Positions 55,917-64,000 of a stretch of 64,000 nucleotides of DNA are shown here, in pieces (the first letter of the stretch is position 1; each line of letters starts with the position of its first letter). Made by a program: the position numbers and the translations under genes. The DNA comes from Acidobacteriota bacterium (lineage in GTDB: Bacteria > Acidobacteriota > Terriglobia > Bryobacterales > Bryobacteraceae): NCBI GenBank assembly GCA_016185425.1, contig JACPNQ010000034.1:248001-312000 (forward strand). Reading direction: 5' to 3'. The notes beneath the pieces are model-generated. The model was not told the origin of the DNA. It searched no databases and worked only from the letters and a program-made list of their open reading frames with translations.

Positions 55917-57275
55917 ATGGCCATCGCACCACTTACATTTACCGGCGTCAGCACCTACTCCACGGATTTCCAAAAGATCCTGGACCGTACCGTGGCGATT
56001 GCATCGCAGCCAATTTCGCAATTGCAATCCGAACAAGCGAAGATTGTCCAACAGAAGGCCATCGCGAGTGGATTGCAAACAGTGGTGGCCGGCCTTGCCT
56101 CGTCGCTTAGCTCTCTCGGCGAGTTGGGGAAGTCAAAAGCACTCGGTGGGAGCTCATCCAATTCTTCGAAAGTCAGCATCGGCACGGTGACCGCCAATAA
56201 TCCGGCCACTTACTCCATCACGGACATCACATCGGTCGCCCGCGCCGCTTCGGCCACTTCCTCCGGATTCGCCGACGGCGGCTCGACGCCAGTGTCAGCT
56301 ACGGGAACCATTAAGCTCTCCTTCAATGGAACGGATCACACAATCACACTGGGCTCGAGCGACAACACGTTGACCGGGTTGCGCGACAAGATCAACGGCT
56401 TGGCGTCCGGCGTCACTGCGTCCATCCTCACAACGGGAACCGGCGCGACACCCTACTACCTGTCGATTACGTCGAACACAACCGGCGAGAAGCCAATCGC
56501 CGTGATTGACGATCCCGACGGAACGGCGACGACGCTTCTAGCGTCCGCTGATGACGGGGCGAACACGAATTTCAAGATCAACGGGGTCCCTGTTTCTAAA
56601 CCGTCAAACCTCATTAACGACGTGGTGGGCGGCGTAACCTTTTCCATACTCGGAACGACCAGCGGAACGGAAAGTGTAACGCTGTCGCTCGCTACCAATC
56701 GCTCGACTCTGTCGAGCCGCTTGCAGTCCTTCGTCTCGGCTTATAACGCAGTTCTCGACAGCACCGATGCGCAGATCGGCGAATCGGCGGGCCTCTTGAC
56801 GGGCGACTTCCTTGTCCGCGAGACGAAAGATGCATTGCGTGGCGTCAGCGGATTTCAGGGAACGGGCGATATTACCTCGCTTGCCCAGCTTGGAGTAACC
56901 TTTGGCAGCGACGGCAAAGCCTCCTTCGAGGCTGACACTTTCAACGCACTGTCTGATTCCCAGATACAAGACGCTTTCACATTTCTGGGTTCCGGATCGA
57001 CGGGATTCAGCGGATTGCAATCCCGGCTCAATCAGATCTCGGATCCGATCACCGGCCTAATCGCAGTTCAGAACACGAAGTACGACGAAAGCGACAAGCG
57101 CATTGCGGATCGCGTCACGGAATTGTCGAATCGCCTGGTTGCGCTCCAAAAGGCGACGGCTGAACGGCTGCAGACGGTCGATGCTCTTCTCGGCTCGCTG
57201 CAATCGCAGCAGACGATCATCGACGCGAGCTACAAGAGCGTCCTGGTCGGAATTTATGGAAAGAACAACGATTAG
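55917..57275 (+). CDS. fliD: Flagellar hook-associated protein 2 (filament cap)
   Basis: This 452-residue protein forms the cap under which flagellin folds at the filament tip. The N-terminal FliD_N region (about 8-105: STDFQKILDRTVAIASQPISQLQSEQAKI) and the C-terminal FliD_C region (about 220-435: NFKINGVPVSKPSNLINDVVGGVTFSIL, LQSFVSAYNAVLDSTDAQIG, the last helix ending QSQQTIIDASYKSVLVGIYG) are typical. The length matches the family. No Shine-Dalgarno sequence is evident; a small hairpin lies there instead. Its last 20 bases overlap the next small gene. It is exported by the flagellar type III system, without a signal peptide. Confidence 0.9.
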   Translation: MAIAPLTFTGVSTYSTDFQKILDRTVAIASQPISQLQSEQAKIVQQKAIASGLQTVVAGLASSLSSLGELGKSKALGGSSSNSSKVSIGTVTANNPATYSITDITSVARAASATSSGFADGGSTPVSATGTIKLSFNGTDHTITLGSSDNTLTGLRDKINGLASGVTASILTTGTGATPYYLSITSNTTGEKPIAVIDDPDGTATTLLASADDGANTNFKINGVPVSKPSNLINDVVGGVTFSILGTTSGTESVTLSLATNRSTLSSRLQSFVSAYNAVLDSTDAQIGESAGLLTGDFLVRETKDALRGVSGFQGTGDITSLAQLGVTFGSDGKASFEADTFNALSDSQIQDAFTFLGSGSTGFSGLQSRLNQISDPITGLIAVQNTKYDESDKRIADRVTELSNRLVALQKATAERLQTVDALLGSLQSQQTIIDASYKSVLVGIYGKNND

Positions 57276-57588
57276 TGTTCGTGACGCGGCGGAGCAACTC
57301 GAAGCCCTCGATGCCATTCTGCTGGCCGCCGTTCCGGGCAGCGAGCCGGAAATTCTCTCGCATCTGCTGCTTCGCCGGGAGCTAATCGATAGATTGGTGC
57401 AATCCTGCCGGCGGCCGGAGAAGCTCCAAGAGATTCAGCGGCGCACCATTCGCCTGGGAGAGAAGTTTCTGCATTGGCGGCGGACAGCAATTATGGATCT
57501 CTCCACCATTGACCAACACCTGCGGTATCTAAACGCGCAAGCGCCTTCGTCATCGGCTCCGCAGGCCGGAATCGATTTTTCAGGCTGA
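57256..57588 (+). CDS. Small helical protein, possible FliT-like chaperone
   Basis: This 110-residue, probably all-helical protein starts with MERTTISVRDAAEQLEALDAILLAA and overlaps the fliD 3' end by 20 bp in another frame. Size, helix content and place directly after fliD match FliT/FliS-type export chaperones, but the sequence does not carry a signature I can recognise, so the name is only a suggestion. It ends 9 bp inside the convergent DegT-family gene (TGA at 57586-57588). Confidence 0.5.
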   Translation: MERTTISVRDAAEQLEALDAILLAAVPGSEPEILSHLLLRRELIDRLVQSCRRPEKLQEIQRRTIRLGEKFLHWRRTAIMDLSTIDQHLRYLNAQAPSSSAPQAGIDFSG

Positions 57589-58716
57589 GAAATCGGCGAT
57601 CGCGCGCAGGACGGCATCCGTGTCGCCGTCGGACAGATAGGGGTGAATTGGCAAGCTGAGCTCCTCCGCAGCCAATCGCTTCGCTTGTTTCAAGGGACCA
57701 AAACAGGCGTAAGAGATGCCGCTCATTGCAGTTTGATCGGGAATTAGGCACGGATAGTGTTCGGCCGGCTGGATACCTTGTCTTCGCAGATGGGTGATCA
57801 GCAGCGGTTTCTTTTCGTGCGACACGCGAGTTGGAAACAGATGCCAGCAGGGCCGCCATTCGCCAGAAGTAGGCTGGTTGGCGGCTATCGGACGAACGGC
57901 CGCCGATGGCCAATTGCTGAGATAGCGTGCGGCGATGTCACAGCGTCTCTCGGTCCATGCGGCTAATCTCGGTAGGAAAACATCTCGCAGCAACGCCGCA
58001 TGGAGTTCATCTAACCGGCTATTGCAACCAATCTCGGTGTGACGGTACTTTTCCGTCTGGCCGTAATCGCGCAAGCATCGCGCTCGGGCAGCCAGAACTG
58101 GGTCGGACGTTAGCACGGCGCCACCATCGCCCATGGTTCCCAGGTTCTTCGTCGGGTAAAAGCTGGTCGCCGCCGCGATCCCAACTGTACCCGTTGGTCT
58201 CCCATTCTCAGTGGCCCCGATCGACTGCGCGCAGTCTTCCACGCAGACCAGCCGGAACTCCCCGATCAGGGCGCGCAGTGATTCACTGTCGAGTGGAAAG
58301 CCATATAAATGCACGGGAAGGAGAAAACGAATCTCGGGCATAGCGCGTAGAGCCGCGCGAGCCTCGTTAAGGTCGATCAGACCAATCTCGGTTGTATCGC
58401 AAAAAACCGGAATACCGCCGGCCCGAATAATCGCCAGCGTCGATGCAAATGCCGACAGCGGCGTTGTCAATACCTTTTCACCTGGACGCAAGCCGGCCGC
58501 GCGTAATGCGATCTCGATTGCATCCAGGCCGCTGGCGACACCCACTGCCTCGGAGAAGCCCCAGTAAGATGCGAGTGCTTGCTCAAACCGGCGGACCCGG
58601 TCGCCCAGGATGTACCATCCACTTCGTCCAACCTCGTCGACAACGCGAAGCGCGTCCGCACGGACATCCTCCCATTGCCGGGCAAAGTCGTTGAAAGGGG
58701 CCGTGTTCGGTGGCAA
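57580..58716 (-). CDS. DegT/DnrJ/EryC1-family sugar aminotransferase
   Basis: This 378-residue PLP enzyme transfers an amino group to a keto-sugar nucleotide. The N-terminus TAPFNDFARQWEDVRADA and GVASGLDAIEIALRAAG near 60, with EDCAQSIGA near 160 and the PLP lysine Lys190 in SFYPTKNLGTMGDGG, identify the family. The listed start is a TTG at 58716; an ATG at 58724 lies in a different frame, so either a TTG is used or a frameshift separates it. Placed between fliD and the flagellins, it may supply an amino sugar for flagellin glycosylation; other genes of such a pathway are not in the window. Confidence 0.88.
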   Translation of the reverse strand: MPPNTAPFNDFARQWEDVRADALRVVDEVGRSGWYILGDRVRRFEQALASYWGFSEAVGVASGLDAIEIALRAAGLRPGEKVLTTPLSAFASTLAIIRAGGIPVFCDTTEIGLIDLNEARAALRAMPEIRFLLPVHLYGFPLDSESLRALIGEFRLVCVEDCAQSIGATENGRPTGTVGIAAATSFYPTKNLGTMGDGGAVLTSDPVLAARARCLRDYGQTEKYRHTEIGCNSRLDELHAALLRDVFLPRLAAWTERRCDIAARYLSNWPSAAVRPIAANQPTSGEWRPCWHLFPTRVSHEKKPLLITHLRRQGIQPAEHYPCLIPDQTAMSGISYACFGPLKQAKRLAAEELSLPIHPYLSDGDTDAVLRAIADFSA

Positions 58717-58774: not shown

Positions 58775-61162
58775 CTAACCGCGGAGCAACGCGAGTACCT
58801 GCTGCGGCGCCGAGTTGGCCTGGGCGAGCGCGGAGATACCGGCCTGAAGGAGGATCTGAGCCTTGGTCAACGAAGCCGCTTCCTCGGCCAGATCGGCATC
58901 GCGAATTCGGGACTCGGAAGCCGCCAGGTTTGTGAGTTGCGACTGCGCCAGGTTAATGGCGAAGTTGAACTGATTCTGACCGCGGCCAACAACGGCTTGG
59001 GCATTGCCGAGCGTGTTGACGGCCTCGGCCAGCGCCGTGACGGCGCGCTCCGCGCCCGCCTGGCTCGTGATATCGGCTGTTGACCCCGTCCCGACTGTAG
59101 ATGCGGTGACGACGCTACCCTGGCTCCCGATGCCAGTATTGGAACCATTGGTGCCGATGGCCACACGGAAGCTGCCGAGAGTGCTGGCGAACCGGATGCC
59201 CTCCGCGCCGGACGCCGAAGCCTTGTCCTTGACGGCGATCACCTTCTGCAGCGTCGTGTCGTTGGACTGCTTGAGCGCCGTGTTGATCGCGTCGATCGCT
59301 TCGTCGACCGTTCCGGCATTGCGGCTAGTCGTGTCGTTGCGGAGCACAACCGCGATCGAATGCTCGGCACCGCTCGAATCGTTGGCCACAACCGTCACGG
59401 TTTGGTCGTCAGCGCCGCCCCGGATGCCCGTAAATGACAGAATCCCGGTCTGCTGGGATCCAGCGGAGACAAACGAGTTGATCGCCGTGTTGCCCGCCTG
59501 CGCCTCGGCAGCGTCAGCGACGCCGGTCACCGTTGTGGAGCCAAAGCCGAAGACGTTGGAGTTGCCGACCGTATTGATCCGGAACTTGCTGCCGTTGGAA
59601 CTGTTGATGGTGATGTCGGTGCCGTCATTGGTTGCAACGAGACCCGCCGCCGCCAGCGTCGAGTTACTGGCAAACGCCGCATTTAGTGCCGTAGTTGCAT
59701 CGCCAATCGTCGCTCCAGCCGGGGTGATCGCCGCAGAGACAGTTGCACCTCCGCCTATCGAGAACTCGAGCGTTTCCGCCGCGGCGGTAAATGCGCCGCC
59801 CGAACCGGTCACGGTCGAGTAGTCGAAGGTGCCGGATGTCCCAGCGGAACTGCGGAACCCGCCGAGGCCAAGCAAGTTGCCGATATCGCCGGAGGCCTGC
59901 ACTTCGAAACGTTCGCCCGATTTGCTTGTGAACTGCAACGCCGAACCGGCGGTAGCAGTCGTAACCGAGATGCCGGCGCTCTGCAGGTTGCTGTTAGAAG
60001 CGACGGCCGACGAGAGGCTGCTCAATGCGGCGTCAATCGTCGTACCGGCTCCGACCGTCAGAGCGACGTCGACAGGGCTGGATAGTCCGGCGCCCTGGAT
60101 ACGGACCGTGACTGTTCCCGCTCCCCCCGCACCGAACGTCGTAGCGGCAGCGGCGGTATTGGATCCACCGGTCACCGTGTTGGCCAAGGCGAGGCCCGTC
60201 GGGTTAGAGGACGAGGTGACATTGCCGACAAGCGCATTCGCCAGACGATCTCCCGCTTCCACCTGGAATGCCGTATTGGAAGAAGTGAAGCCGAGCGATT
60301 TCTTGCCGTCGGCCGACGTGACGACGGCCGCCTTGATACCGGCGTTCTTAAACGCCGTGGCGTTGGAAGAGGCAGCGTTCCCGGCGTTGTCTATCGCGCT
60401 GTTGATCGCGGAAACCAGCGTATCGGTGTCGGTTACGCCCGACAGGTTGACGGAAACCTTCACCCGTTCGTTATCGGAGAACCCGGCACCGCGGAAGGAA
60501 AAGTCCGTATAGCCGGACGTGCCGACCGATCCGAGGTTGGTGGCGTCATTCACAATGGCGGAAACACTGGTGCTAGCCGAACCGGTTCCGATGTCGGTGG
60601 AGGTAACTCCCTGCGCTTGCACGCCCTGAAGCCCGAGGCTCTTCGAATCGACCGTGGAATTGGAAAGGTTCACGCCGACCGAGCCGTTTGTGGTCGACGA
60701 AATCCCGCCGGACGTGCGCCCGCCGCCGATGAATACGGAAAGCGACTTGGCAAAGGTGCCGCCGGAGTTCAGGCCGATCGCCTGCGCCTGCCGGTCAATT
60801 TCCGTAATAACGCTCTGGAATTCGCTGTTCAGCACAGTACGGCTGCCGGAAAACGCGCCGGACGCCGACTGGGTGGCCAGAGTGCGGGCGCGGTCGAGAA
60901 GCTTGCTGATGTTATTGATGCCGCCGTCGATGGTCTGCAACGAGCTTAGGCCGTCGTTTGCGTTGCGGATACCTTGTGAAAGGACCGCTTGGTCGCTGCG
61001 GAAAGTATTGGCGATGGACAGACCGGCGGCGTCGTCGCCACTGGACTGGATGCGAAGGCCGGAAGTGACGCGGCCGATGGTCTTGCCCTGGGCCTCGGAG
61101 GTCTGACGCAGGTATTCCTGCGCTTGCAGCGAGGCGACGTTCGTGTTGATGCGAAAAGACAT
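58775..61162 (-). CDS. fliC: Flagellin, large form, copy 1
   Basis: This 795-residue filament protein has a conserved N-terminal D0/D1 part (1 to about 165: MSFRINTNVASLQAQEYL, SGLRIQSSGDDAAGLSIAN, EIDRQAQ). The C-terminal D1/D0 part (about 700-795) ends QILLQAGISALAQANSAPQQVLALLRG. The central region is roughly 535 residues, much longer than in enteric flagellins. It contains four degenerate modules of about 85-100 residues (about 218-313, 348-434, 459-541, 573-672). The ATG at 61162 has AAGGAGAG upstream; a longer reading frame from 61225 lacks the conserved start. It has its own terminator and a sigma-28-like element. The same length as copy 2 points to a tandem duplication. Confidence 0.95.
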   Translation of the reverse strand: MSFRINTNVASLQAQEYLRQTSEAQGKTIGRVTSGLRIQSSGDDAAGLSIANTFRSDQAVLSQGIRNANDGLSSLQTIDGGINNISKLLDRARTLATQSASGAFSGSRTVLNSEFQSVITEIDRQAQAIGLNSGGTFAKSLSVFIGGGRTSGGISSTTNGSVGVNLSNSTVDSKSLGLQGVQAQGVTSTDIGTGSASTSVSAIVNDATNLGSVGTSGYTDFSFRGAGFSDNERVKVSVNLSGVTDTDTLVSAINSAIDNAGNAASSNATAFKNAGIKAAVVTSADGKKSLGFTSSNTAFQVEAGDRLANALVGNVTSSSNPTGLALANTVTGGSNTAAAATTFGAGGAGTVTVRIQGAGLSSPVDVALTVGAGTTIDAALSSLSSAVASNSNLQSAGISVTTATAGSALQFTSKSGERFEVQASGDIGNLLGLGGFRSSAGTSGTFDYSTVTGSGGAFTAAAETLEFSIGGGATVSAAITPAGATIGDATTALNAAFASNSTLAAAGLVATNDGTDITINSSNGSKFRINTVGNSNVFGFGSTTVTGVADAAEAQAGNTAINSFVSAGSQQTGILSFTGIRGGADDQTVTVVANDSSGAEHSIAVVLRNDTTSRNAGTVDEAIDAINTALKQSNDTTLQKVIAVKDKASASGAEGIRFASTLGSFRVAIGTNGSNTGIGSQGSVVTASTVGTGSTADITSQAGAERAVTALAEAVNTLGNAQAVVGRGQNQFNFAINLAQSQLTNLAASESRIRDADLAEEAASLTKAQILLQAGISALAQANSAPQQVLALLRG

Positions 61163-61269
61163 GTTTCTCTCCTTGAAACAGAGTCCCGGATGGTGTTTCC
61201 GGAGCCGCTCGCTCCGCTGCCCCAAAGTCCTTTTTGGGGAAAGTCACGCGCGATTGGCGTTCAATGCTC

Positions 61270-61277
61270 ATATCGGG
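61270..61277 (-). promoter_or_regulatory. Sigma-28-like -10 element of flagellin gene 1
   Basis: CCCGATAT on the minus strand matches the element upstream of flagellin gene 2 (ACCGATAT, 63937-63944) and the sigma-28 -10 GCCGATAA. No good -35 is seen 15 bp further upstream. It would give a leader of about 100 bases. Confidence 0.35.
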
Positions 61278-61349
61278 GGACGGTGGGATGCCGAGAGGGA
61301 TAGGGGAAGAAAAACAATGGGATAGGTGCAGAAGGAGCAGTCTAGATCG

Positions 61350-61397
61350 CATGACTAAAAAGCGAACAGCCACCTGCGTGGAGCGGGTGGCTGTTCG
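61350..61397 (-). terminator. Intrinsic terminator of flagellin gene 2
   Basis: Stem CGAACAGCCACC (61363-61374) pairs with GGTGGCTGTTCG (61386-61397) around an 11-base loop. Read leftward it is followed by GCTTTTTAG, a good U-tract. It separates the two flagellin transcription units. Confidence 0.88.
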
Positions 61398-61420
61398 AAG
61401 GCGGCGGATTGAGCTTGTGA

Positions 61421-63808
61421 CTAGCCTTTCAGCAATGACAGAACCTGCTGCGGTGCCGAGTTTGCCTGCGCCAGCGCCGAAATCCCCGCTTGCAGCAGAA
61501 TCTGTGCTTTCGTCAGGTTTGCGGCCTCCTCGGCGAGGTCGGCATCGCGAATCCGGGATTCAGCCGCCGCGATATTGGTCAACTGGCTGGATGCTAGATT
61601 AACCGCGAAGGAAAACTGATTCTGGCCGCGGCCAACTACAGCCTGCGCGTCGCCAAGCTTGGTCACCGCATTGGCGAGCGCGTTGACAGCCGCCTCAGCG
61701 CCGGCCTGGGTGCTGATGTCGGCGGTTGAGCCATTTCCAGCAGCGTCAGAGCTCACCACCGTGCCCTGATCGCCCAAACCGGTGCCTGACGCATTGGTGC
61801 CGACCGCAATCTTGAAGCCGCGCAGCGTTGAGATGAACCGGATACCTTCAGGCCCCGACGGGGACGCCTTGTCCTTTACAGCCGCGATCGCCTGAATCGT
61901 CGGGTCGTTCGACTGCTTCAGTGCTGTGTTGATGGCGGAAATAGCCTCGTCGACCGTCCCGGCGTTGCGCAAGCCGGAATCATTGCGGAGAATAACCGCG
62001 ACCGAGTGCTCGCCGCCCCCGGTGTCGTTTGCCGAAACTGTAATCGTCTGATCGTCGCCGCCATTGCGGATCCCCGTGAAGGGGATGATGGATGACTGCT
62101 GCACGCCGCCGGCATTGAAGGCATTTACGTCGGTGTTGCCTGCCTGGGTCTCGGCCGTGTCCGCGACCCCCGTCGCCGTGGCCGCATTAAAGCCAAACAC
62201 ATTGCCGGCGCCAATCGTGGCGATCCGGAATTTGCTGCCGGTGGAACTGGTGATGGAGATGTCGGTGCCGTCATTGGTGGCGACGAGCCCGGCGGCAGCG
62301 AGCGTCGCGTTTGCCGCAAACTGTGCATTCAGGGCGATGGTGGCGTCGGCGATGGTGGCCGCAGCCGGTGTCACGCTCACCGAGACCGTCGGCCCTCCGC
62401 CGATAGAAAACTCCAATGTCTCGGCCGAAGCGGCGAAACTTCCGCCGGAACCGGTCACCGTCGAATAGTCAAAGGTACCGGCAGCGCCACCAGAGCCGCG
62501 GAAGCTACCAAGGCCCAGAATGTTGTTGAGATCGCCGGATGAAGCTACTTCGAAACGCTCGCCGCGGGCGCTGGTGAATACGAGCGGCGCCCCGGGCGTA
62601 GCCGCTGTCAACGTAATCCCGGCCGCCTGCAGATTGCCGTTTCCGCTGATTGCCGTCGCAAGGCTGGCGAGAGCCTGGTCGACGGTTGTCGCAGCAGCGA
62701 CATTGACGCTGATATCGACCGGCGTGGCAAGGCCGGCGCCCTGGAGGCGAACTTGCACAACTCCGGCGCCGGACGCGCCGAACGTTGTTGCCGCGGCGGC
62801 GGTATTGGACCCGCCCGTCACCGTGTTGACGAGCGCCCTTCCAGTAGGATTCGAAGACGAAATCACGTTTCCCAGCAGCGCATTCGCGAGCCGGTCACCC
62901 GCTTCGACCTGAAACGCGGTGTTGCTGGAACTGAACGCCAACGACTTCCTGCCGTCCGGCGACGTGACCACCGAAGCACTAATATTGGCGTTGTGGAAGG
63001 CGGTGGCCTCCGGGCTGACGACGGTTCCCGAGGAGGCGATCGCGTTGTTAATTGCGGTCACCAGATTGTCCACATTGGTGACGCCGGACAAATTGACGGC
63101 GACCTTGATACGCTTCGCATCTCCGAAGCCCGGTCCGCGGAAAAAGAACTCGGTGAAACCGGACGCGTTCTGCGATGCTGTATTCGCCGGGTCATTTACG
63201 ATGGCGGAGACGCTCGTCGAAGGCGACCCCGTGCCGATGTCCGTTGTTGTGATGCCTTGGGCCTGTGCGCCTTTGAGACCAAGACTCTTGGCGTCGACGG
63301 TGGAGTTGCTGAGGTCGACCTGCGACGCGCCGTTTTGGATCGAGGTGATCCCGCCCGAAGACTTGCCGCCGCCGATAAATACCGACAACGCCCGCGCGAA
63401 TTCGCCGCCAGCGTTCAGCCCGATGGCCTGCGCCTGCCGATCGATTTCCGTGATCACGCTGCCGAACTCCGAGTTGAGGACGCTTCGGCTTCCAATAAAG
63501 GTCCCCGATGCCGACTGCGTGGCAAGGGTTCGGGCCCGGTCCAGAAGCTTGCTGATGTTGTTGATTCCGCCATCGATGGTCTGCAGGGTGCTAAGTCCGT
63601 CGTTGGCATTGCGGATGCCTTGCTGCAGCACTGCCTGATCGCTACGGAAGCTGTTGGCGATGGAAAGCCCGGCGGCGTCGTCGCCACTGGAGAGGATACG
63701 CAACCCCGAGGTCACCCGGCCGATTGTCTTCGACTGGACTTCACTCGTATTCCTTAAATACTCCTGAGACTGCAGGGAGGCGATGTTGGTATTGATGCGG
63801 AAGGACAT
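61421..63808 (-). CDS. fliC: Flagellin, large form, copy 2
   Basis: This 795-residue flagellin is of exactly the same length as copy 1 and very similar at both ends: MSFRINTNIASLQSQEYL, GLRILSSGDDAAGLSIAN, and the C-terminus NSAPQQVLSLLKG. The central part has the same four-module plan (for example FTEFFFRGPGFGDAKRIKVAVNLSGV, LQGAGLATPVDISVNVAAATTVDQAL, ETLEFSIGGGPTVSVSVTPAAATI, IPFTGIRNGGDDQTITVSAND). Differences are scattered through the copies, more so in the modules. Ribosome-binding AAGGAG lies 7 bases before the ATG. A matching sigma-28-type promoter and a long leader of about 125 bases precede it. Confidence 0.95.
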   Translation of the reverse strand: MSFRINTNIASLQSQEYLRNTSEVQSKTIGRVTSGLRILSSGDDAAGLSIANSFRSDQAVLQQGIRNANDGLSTLQTIDGGINNISKLLDRARTLATQSASGTFIGSRSVLNSEFGSVITEIDRQAQAIGLNAGGEFARALSVFIGGGKSSGGITSIQNGASQVDLSNSTVDAKSLGLKGAQAQGITTTDIGTGSPSTSVSAIVNDPANTASQNASGFTEFFFRGPGFGDAKRIKVAVNLSGVTNVDNLVTAINNAIASSGTVVSPEATAFHNANISASVVTSPDGRKSLAFSSSNTAFQVEAGDRLANALLGNVISSSNPTGRALVNTVTGGSNTAAAATTFGASGAGVVQVRLQGAGLATPVDISVNVAAATTVDQALASLATAISGNGNLQAAGITLTAATPGAPLVFTSARGERFEVASSGDLNNILGLGSFRGSGGAAGTFDYSTVTGSGGSFAASAETLEFSIGGGPTVSVSVTPAAATIADATIALNAQFAANATLAAAGLVATNDGTDISITSSTGSKFRIATIGAGNVFGFNAATATGVADTAETQAGNTDVNAFNAGGVQQSSIIPFTGIRNGGDDQTITVSANDTGGGEHSVAVILRNDSGLRNAGTVDEAISAINTALKQSNDPTIQAIAAVKDKASPSGPEGIRFISTLRGFKIAVGTNASGTGLGDQGTVVSSDAAGNGSTADISTQAGAEAAVNALANAVTKLGDAQAVVGRGQNQFSFAVNLASSQLTNIAAAESRIRDADLAEEAANLTKAQILLQAGISALAQANSAPQQVLSLLKG

Positions 63809-63936: not shown

Positions 63937-63963
63937 ATATCGGTGGTAGGTGGGGTTGTGTTA
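63937..63963 (-). promoter_or_regulatory. Sigma-28-type promoter of flagellin gene 2
   Basis: Read leftward: TAAC (63963-63960), 15 bp, ACCGATAT (63944-63937). This matches the flagellar sigma-28 arrangement TAAA, 15 bp, GCCGATAA at most positions. It lies 129 bp upstream of the start codon. The remaining DNA to 64000 shows no gene. Confidence 0.6.
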
Positions 63964-64000
63964 GGGGGTATTAGACTTTTCGTCGTTGGGGGATACTGCT

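Follow-up and report, generated by a model that had tools for sequence, protein, structure and literature searches.

Tandem flagellin genes and their surroundings

The window analysed here, a 64,000-nucleotide stretch of DNA from an Acidobacteriota bacterium (Bryobacteraceae), carries two tandem flagellin genes on its minus strand: copy 1 (P0001, 58775..61162) and, upstream of it, copy 2 (P0002, 61421..63808). A sequence-only reading of the window had placed two flagellins of 795 residues at 58775-63808, and both open reading frames bear out the place and the length. Flagellin_N and Flagellin_C were the only Pfam families above cut-off, at the two ends of each protein (94.8 and 71.8 bits in copy 1; 88.4 and 74.3 bits in copy 2), with nothing in the centre. 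The FlgL model TIGR02550 (flgL) scored 55.0 and 61.5 bits against a cut-off of 127.2, so that neither copy is the junction protein FlgL. The predicted helical core matched the solved filament 9hpz (Z 18.1, 218 residues aligned, rmsd 3.8). The nearest named records were acidobacterial, with labels including Bryobacteraceae, Bryobacterales and Candidatus Sulfopaludibacter. We then aligned 57 flagellins, comprising the two window copies and relatives of 760-815 residues, and Flagellin_N and Flagellin_C were matched in 57/57 of these members. Both copies are bacterial flagellin (FliC) with ordinary ends. The reading had called them 'giant', a label that does not hold at 795 residues against the definition of more than 1,000 residues in PMC6248924. 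One further Flagellin_N gene was detected genome-wide, on a separate contig (C29).

The two copies are 74% identical in a gapless alignment. Between them dN/dS was ~0.12, with 0.05 in the ends and 0.11-0.27 in the modules described below, all at synonymous sites near saturation; this looks like purifying selection on both copies, strongest in the ends and weaker in the modules. In a phylogenetic tree each copy grouped with its counterparts from other genomes (support was good for copy 2 and weaker for copy 1), and the split of the two copies is read from this tree as predating the separation from the nearest relatives. In themselves the window genes are ordinary, two intact-looking large flagellins.

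Between the two genes lies a terminator-like perfect inverted repeat with an 11-nt loop and a T-run (61356..61396, minus strand). It was read by eye and is not listed by a hairpin scanner that allows loops of up to 8; the hairpin suggests that the two flagellin genes may be transcribed separately. A sigma-70 promoter scan found nothing. Upstream of copy 2 lie csrA, whose 3' end falls in the window (63961..64000, minus strand; CsrA 69.7 bits) and which continues past it to 64269, and fliW, which precedes csrA beyond the window (64269-64781, minus strand; FliW 79.2 bits). In B. subtilis, and in other bacteria too, FliW and CsrA are described as a brake on the synthesis of flagellin, and the pair encoded here, just upstream of the flagellins, probably holds their expression in check.

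Adjoining the flagellin genes on the other side is a DegT/DnrJ aminotransferase (57580-58716, minus strand), the best NCBIfam match of which was PseC at 175 bits against a cut-off of 423.5; this neighbour hints at a possible sugar modification of the flagellin. The FliD cap protein is encoded on the plus strand (55917-57275; FliD_C 115 bits, FliD_N 29 bits) and is followed by a short frame without a Pfam match (57250-57588), which could be a FliD partner.

Four related modules in the central region

The centre of copy 1 is divided into four modules, all given here on the minus strand: module 1 at residues 213-320 (60203..60526), module 2 at 340-440 (59843..60145), module 3 at 450-547 (59522..59815) and module 4 at 565-680 (59123..59470). 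The structural elements predicted by AlphaFold2 run from 218 to 303, 349 to 424, 463 to 533 and 587 to 669, respectively. In copy 2 the modules occupy the same residues, placed by the gapless alignment to copy 1 and by the module HMMs: 62849..63172 (module 1, 213-320), 62489..62791 (module 2, 340-440), 62168..62461 (module 3, 450-547) and 61769..62116 (module 4, 565-680), again on the minus strand.

Using the 57 sequences as input (mean pLDDT 79.0, pTM 0.64), AlphaFold2 returned the element order b-b-a-b-b-b in all four modules, modules 1 to 3 having a second, shorter helix. The same order came back when modules 2 and 3 were predicted on their own (mean pLDDT 82.7). Structure prediction had been named beforehand as the test of the proposed four-part repeat, with unrelated folds counting against it; the same fold was predicted in all four stretches. 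The stretches first proposed by eye (218-313, 348-434, 459-541 and 573-672) agree with the predicted modules, only the fourth starting ~14 residues early. The shared motifs proposed for them fared less evenly: 11/16 motif-by-stretch cells were filled in each copy, a count reached by none of 2000 shuffled centres (mean 4.0), and all four motifs occur together in the first stretch only.

To relate the modules to each other we compared their profiles, built from the 57 flagellins, with hhalign. The closest pair was modules 2 and 3 (profile probability 97.2%, E 2.8e-11), followed by modules 1 and 4 (92.1%, E 6.2e-7) and modules 1 and 2 (59.5%, E 9e-5). The remaining pairs were weak (16.3% for 2-4, 11.8% for 1-3 and 3.1% for 3-4). 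When columns were shuffled 60 times per pair, the observed score was reached in 0/60 shuffles for five pairs and in 1/60 for the pair 3-4. Internal repeat detection, which had also been proposed as a check, likewise returned a repeat: the profile aligned to itself one module out of register, residues 216-509 pairing with 346-619 (E 6.7e-10). As judged from these profiles, the four modules are related, strongly for 2-3 and 1-4, moderately for 1-2, and not clearly for 3-4 by direct comparison. No family of DNA-level repeats of 40 nt or more was found inside the window flagellin genes, and the duplication of their modules is therefore old.

Module number across the family

We surveyed 237 genomes of the family, 216 of which had a Flagellin_N match, and chose 80 loci by hand to span genera and lengths, so that the class frequencies given below are no census. 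With the window locus included, these yielded 90 open reading frames with a flagellin end; after 8 truncated or incomplete frames were dropped, 82 full-length flagellins remained. They span 274 to 1453 residues and cluster in steps of ~120-130: about 280 residues (5 proteins), 417 (2), 488-573 (27), 672 (1), 778-822 (26), 887-919 (10), 1034-1045 (2), 1117-1129 (6), and 1232, 1268 and 1453 (one each). The best length period was 129 residues (power 22.0), a power reached by 0/2000 blurred sets; this comparison used the 73 of 82 proteins left after removal of near-copies and a null of lengths blurred by 60 residues, which ignores kinship, and it is weakened further by the choice of genes.

The module HMMs, derived from the 57 aligned flagellins, followed these length classes. 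No module was matched in 5/5 proteins of ~280 residues, and module 1 alone was matched in both proteins of ~417. Among the 27 proteins of 488-573 residues, modules 1 then 4 were found in 11, single or partial matches in 4 and none in 12; the sole protein of 672 residues matched modules 1 and 4. Modules 1-2-3-4 were found in this order in 25/26 proteins of 778-822 residues, some of which overlap with the sequences from which the HMMs were built. All 10 proteins of 887-919 residues had the four modules plus ~110 extra residues, located between modules 3 and 4 in seven and between 2 and 3 in three. In 11/11 of the longer flagellins modules 1 and 4 were outermost, with 2 and 3 inside. Overall the family carries about 0 to ~10 modules per flagellin, where the upper count is by length; length alone likewise gives the module count for 12 + 4 of the 27 two-module-size proteins and for the gaps of the longest ones, where the HMMs miss. 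In sequence, modules 1 and 4 form an outer frame, with the extra modules placed between them. A comparison with flagellins of related acidobacteria had been suggested at the outset, and it revealed a ladder of module numbers across the family.

The ~672-residue size, equivalent to three modules, occurred in 1/82 flagellins, while two and four modules were common. A preference for even numbers would fit an out-and-back chain, yet it is not rare to find five or seven modules.

We also followed module number in a tree built from both ends (N and C) of 133 flagellins. Length class has to change 26 times or more on this tree, the branch support of which is modest; its well-supported branches force fewer changes. 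One clear change separates a protein of 1045 residues (L207) from its neighbour of 803 (L023). Three proteins of 912, 1034 and 1268 residues (L148, L155 and L156) come from one genus and have nearly identical ends. The longest of these, L156 from genome G227, contains at residues 614-947 a 167-residue unit twice in tandem, with 119/167 positions identical and the two units 501 nt apart in the DNA. The repeat was found by a DNA repeat search and by eye; a blastp self-comparison of the three proteins returned only the trivial diagonal. By its sequence, the repeat is taken to be a recent duplication inside the flagellin gene. Together with the length changes in the tree, this tandem unit indicates that within-gene duplication continues in the family.

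At loci with at least two full-length flagellins, the neighbours belonged to the same length class in 18/18 cases, 16 of which are four-module loci and many close relatives. Other classes can occur elsewhere in the same genome, as in G126, with open frames of 808, 812, 280 and 276 residues. We put forward tentatively, and with more doubt than confidence, that these flagellins behave as accordion genes, in which an outer-domain unit would be gained or lost in whole steps between fixed end modules, filament bulk would change stepwise, and flagellins encoded side by side would keep an equal module number for register in a mixed filament.

Origin of the modules and the predicted filament

The Pfam family Flagellin_IN (PF07196) reached 13.8 bits in the window proteins and did not pass its cut-off of 22.7. 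This match, the only one to Flagellin_IN in the genome among those listed (E up to 10), coincides with module 1 of copy 1. The family was matched in 0/57 aligned members at E up to 1. Across the family survey, Flagellin_IN was found in 71/237 genomes at E up to 0.001, mostly in frames of FliD-like length. Five matches fall in frames of 906-934 residues (G062, G063, G166, G167 and G253), and in G062, G166, G167 and G253 the match is above cut-off and lies at the extra module, as positioned by arithmetic from the coordinates. A profile of the extra module from 8 flagellins matched module 3 (95.6%) and module 2 (68.5%), with no significant match to module 1 or 4. The window modules are thus linked to Flagellin_IN by way of relatives from their own taxonomic family.

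Comparison with solved structures gave fold matches of modest strength. The module fold aligned with residues 177-273 of P. aeruginosa FliC (4nx9; Z 7.7, rmsd 2.5, 89 aligned), with residues 234-322 of the C. jejuni flagellin (6x80; Z 6.1, rmsd 3.1, 84 aligned) and with 8erm (Z 5.0), all under the tool's safe Z of 8. Fold matches of modules 2 and 3 also include parts of Vibrio flagellin, FliD and FlgK, most of them at Z below 8, a range that the tool calls common. A Foldseek search with modules 2 and 3 gave no match at E up to 0.001. The predicted fold link to solved flagellin outer domains is supportive, not proof.

The top fold matches of modules 2 and 3 (59504-60169), above the flagellins, were phage tail proteins of PhiTE, A-1(L) and Sf14 (Z 9.4, 8.7 and 8.1).

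The most fitting reading of the modules is that they are diverged outer domains of flagellin, which would have been multiplied by within-gene duplication. We consider it probable that the window encodes two filament proteins in which one flagellin outer domain, repeated four times in a row by such duplication, makes up the surface part. The pairing of modules 2 with 3 and 1 with 4, the strongest relationships among the four, would also be expected if the paired modules combined, each physical domain then being assembled from stretches far apart in the chain, as happens in Salmonella D2; the protein would have two large outer layers in place of four separate domains. The 11/27 two-module-size relatives with modules 1 and 4 fit this arrangement too, and the same alternative is drawn for the duplicated region in the Fig 3 legend of PMC6248924. 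We regard it as unlikely here, given that each module alone has the full strand-helix-strand order and that one-module and five-module forms exist.

Much less credible still is that the four stretches share no ancestor and arrived at similar strand-helix-strand patterns by convergence. This could account for modules 3 and 4, whose direct similarity does not stand out from shuffles (1/60 reach it), but it is largely refuted for the pairs 2-3 and 1-4, which lie far above their shuffles; modules 1 and 2 join these two pairs (59.5%, 0/60 shuffles), and the self-alignment shifted by one module speaks against convergence as well. We also think it very improbable that the modules serve attachment as adhesive or binding domains, with motility secondary. 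Module 2 does weakly match a domain of the colonisation factor GbpA (2xwx, Z 5.3, in the range that the tool calls common), but adhesin or enzyme families above cut-off are absent from the two copies, and domains of flagellin, FliD and phage tails match as well or better.

If the surface part is a string of four outer domains, the chain would leave the filament core, pass through the modules and return, so that the modules would protrude from the core in each subunit. Protruding modules would widen the filament, and contact between the outer domains of adjacent subunits could stiffen it. A wider and stiffer filament would help swimming in viscous or porous surroundings, a benefit that rests on other species: P. 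aeruginosa PAO1 needs its outer domains to be motile and gains from them when the medium is viscous (PMC10256154). That the filament is thick is plausible from the example of flagellins of 1,020 and 1,190 residues, which form filaments at least 30 nm wide (PMC6248924), the reference being the 24 nm Salmonella filament (PMC6248924). The further suggestion of the sequence-only reading, a 'sheathed' or 'adhesive' filament, is unsupported, with only Flagellin_N and Flagellin_C passing the Pfam cut-off in both copies.

Readings of the proteins as adhesin, enzyme or membrane sheath were dropped, since no supporting family was found in the two copies or in the 57 aligned members. In E. coli O157:H7 the outer domains form an outer-domain sheath, not a membrane sheath (PMC8931119).

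Enlargement of flagellins by internal duplication is already known. Flagellins of more than 1,000 residues are reported from several phyla; in two marine species the filaments measure at least 30 nm, and in marine gamma-proteobacteria the flagellins grew when a region was duplicated and insertions followed (PMC6248924). The Oceanospirillales giant flagellins, with tandem Domain-Extension (DE) regions, resemble the window proteins in that an internally duplicated surface region enlarges the centre, and in that later growth was inserted between the duplicated parts, the inserts lying between conserved D0/D1 ends (PMC6248924). Likened here by description, they have two DE regions plus a DX insert that lacks internal repeats (PMC6248924), whereas the window proteins have four related modules; unlike this two-DE pattern, the present flagellins range from 0 to ~10 modules (by length) within one bacterial family. 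Acidobacteria are not mentioned in the main text of PMC6248924, and a literature search, with subscription papers mostly outside its reach, found no paper on acidobacterial flagellin modules.

P. aeruginosa PAO1 and C. jejuni have ridged filaments (PMC10256154) with outer domains weakly similar in fold to modules 2 and 3. Those filaments carry two or three outer domains without a ladder; the modules here are known from sequence and predicted fold. Flagellins of the Helicobacter/Campylobacter type matched Flagellin_IN twice in the three epsilon-proteobacterial proteins scanned, a family that the extra modules of the window's relatives also pass, and their centre repeats itself too (91.2%, E 1e-6). 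In direct profile comparisons with the centre of 34 such flagellins, the window modules gave nothing significant (best 2.1%).

Among solved whole proteins the Geovibrio thiophilus flagellin 9au6 (792-793 residues) comes closest; it has the same size as the window copies, and a literature search found no paper on it. It was the only chain among the matches listed with an end-to-end sequence match (E 9e-33, residues 1-793), and it ranked first in Foldseek (E 2.4e-12); at 16% identity and a TM-score of 0.23, the shared signal may be mostly core.

The more unusual of these results is the regular ladder of lengths. The family forms a natural series from a bare core of ~280 residues to 1453, apparently by one repeated unit, and would let the dependence of filament width and stiffness on the number of outer domains be asked within one lineage.
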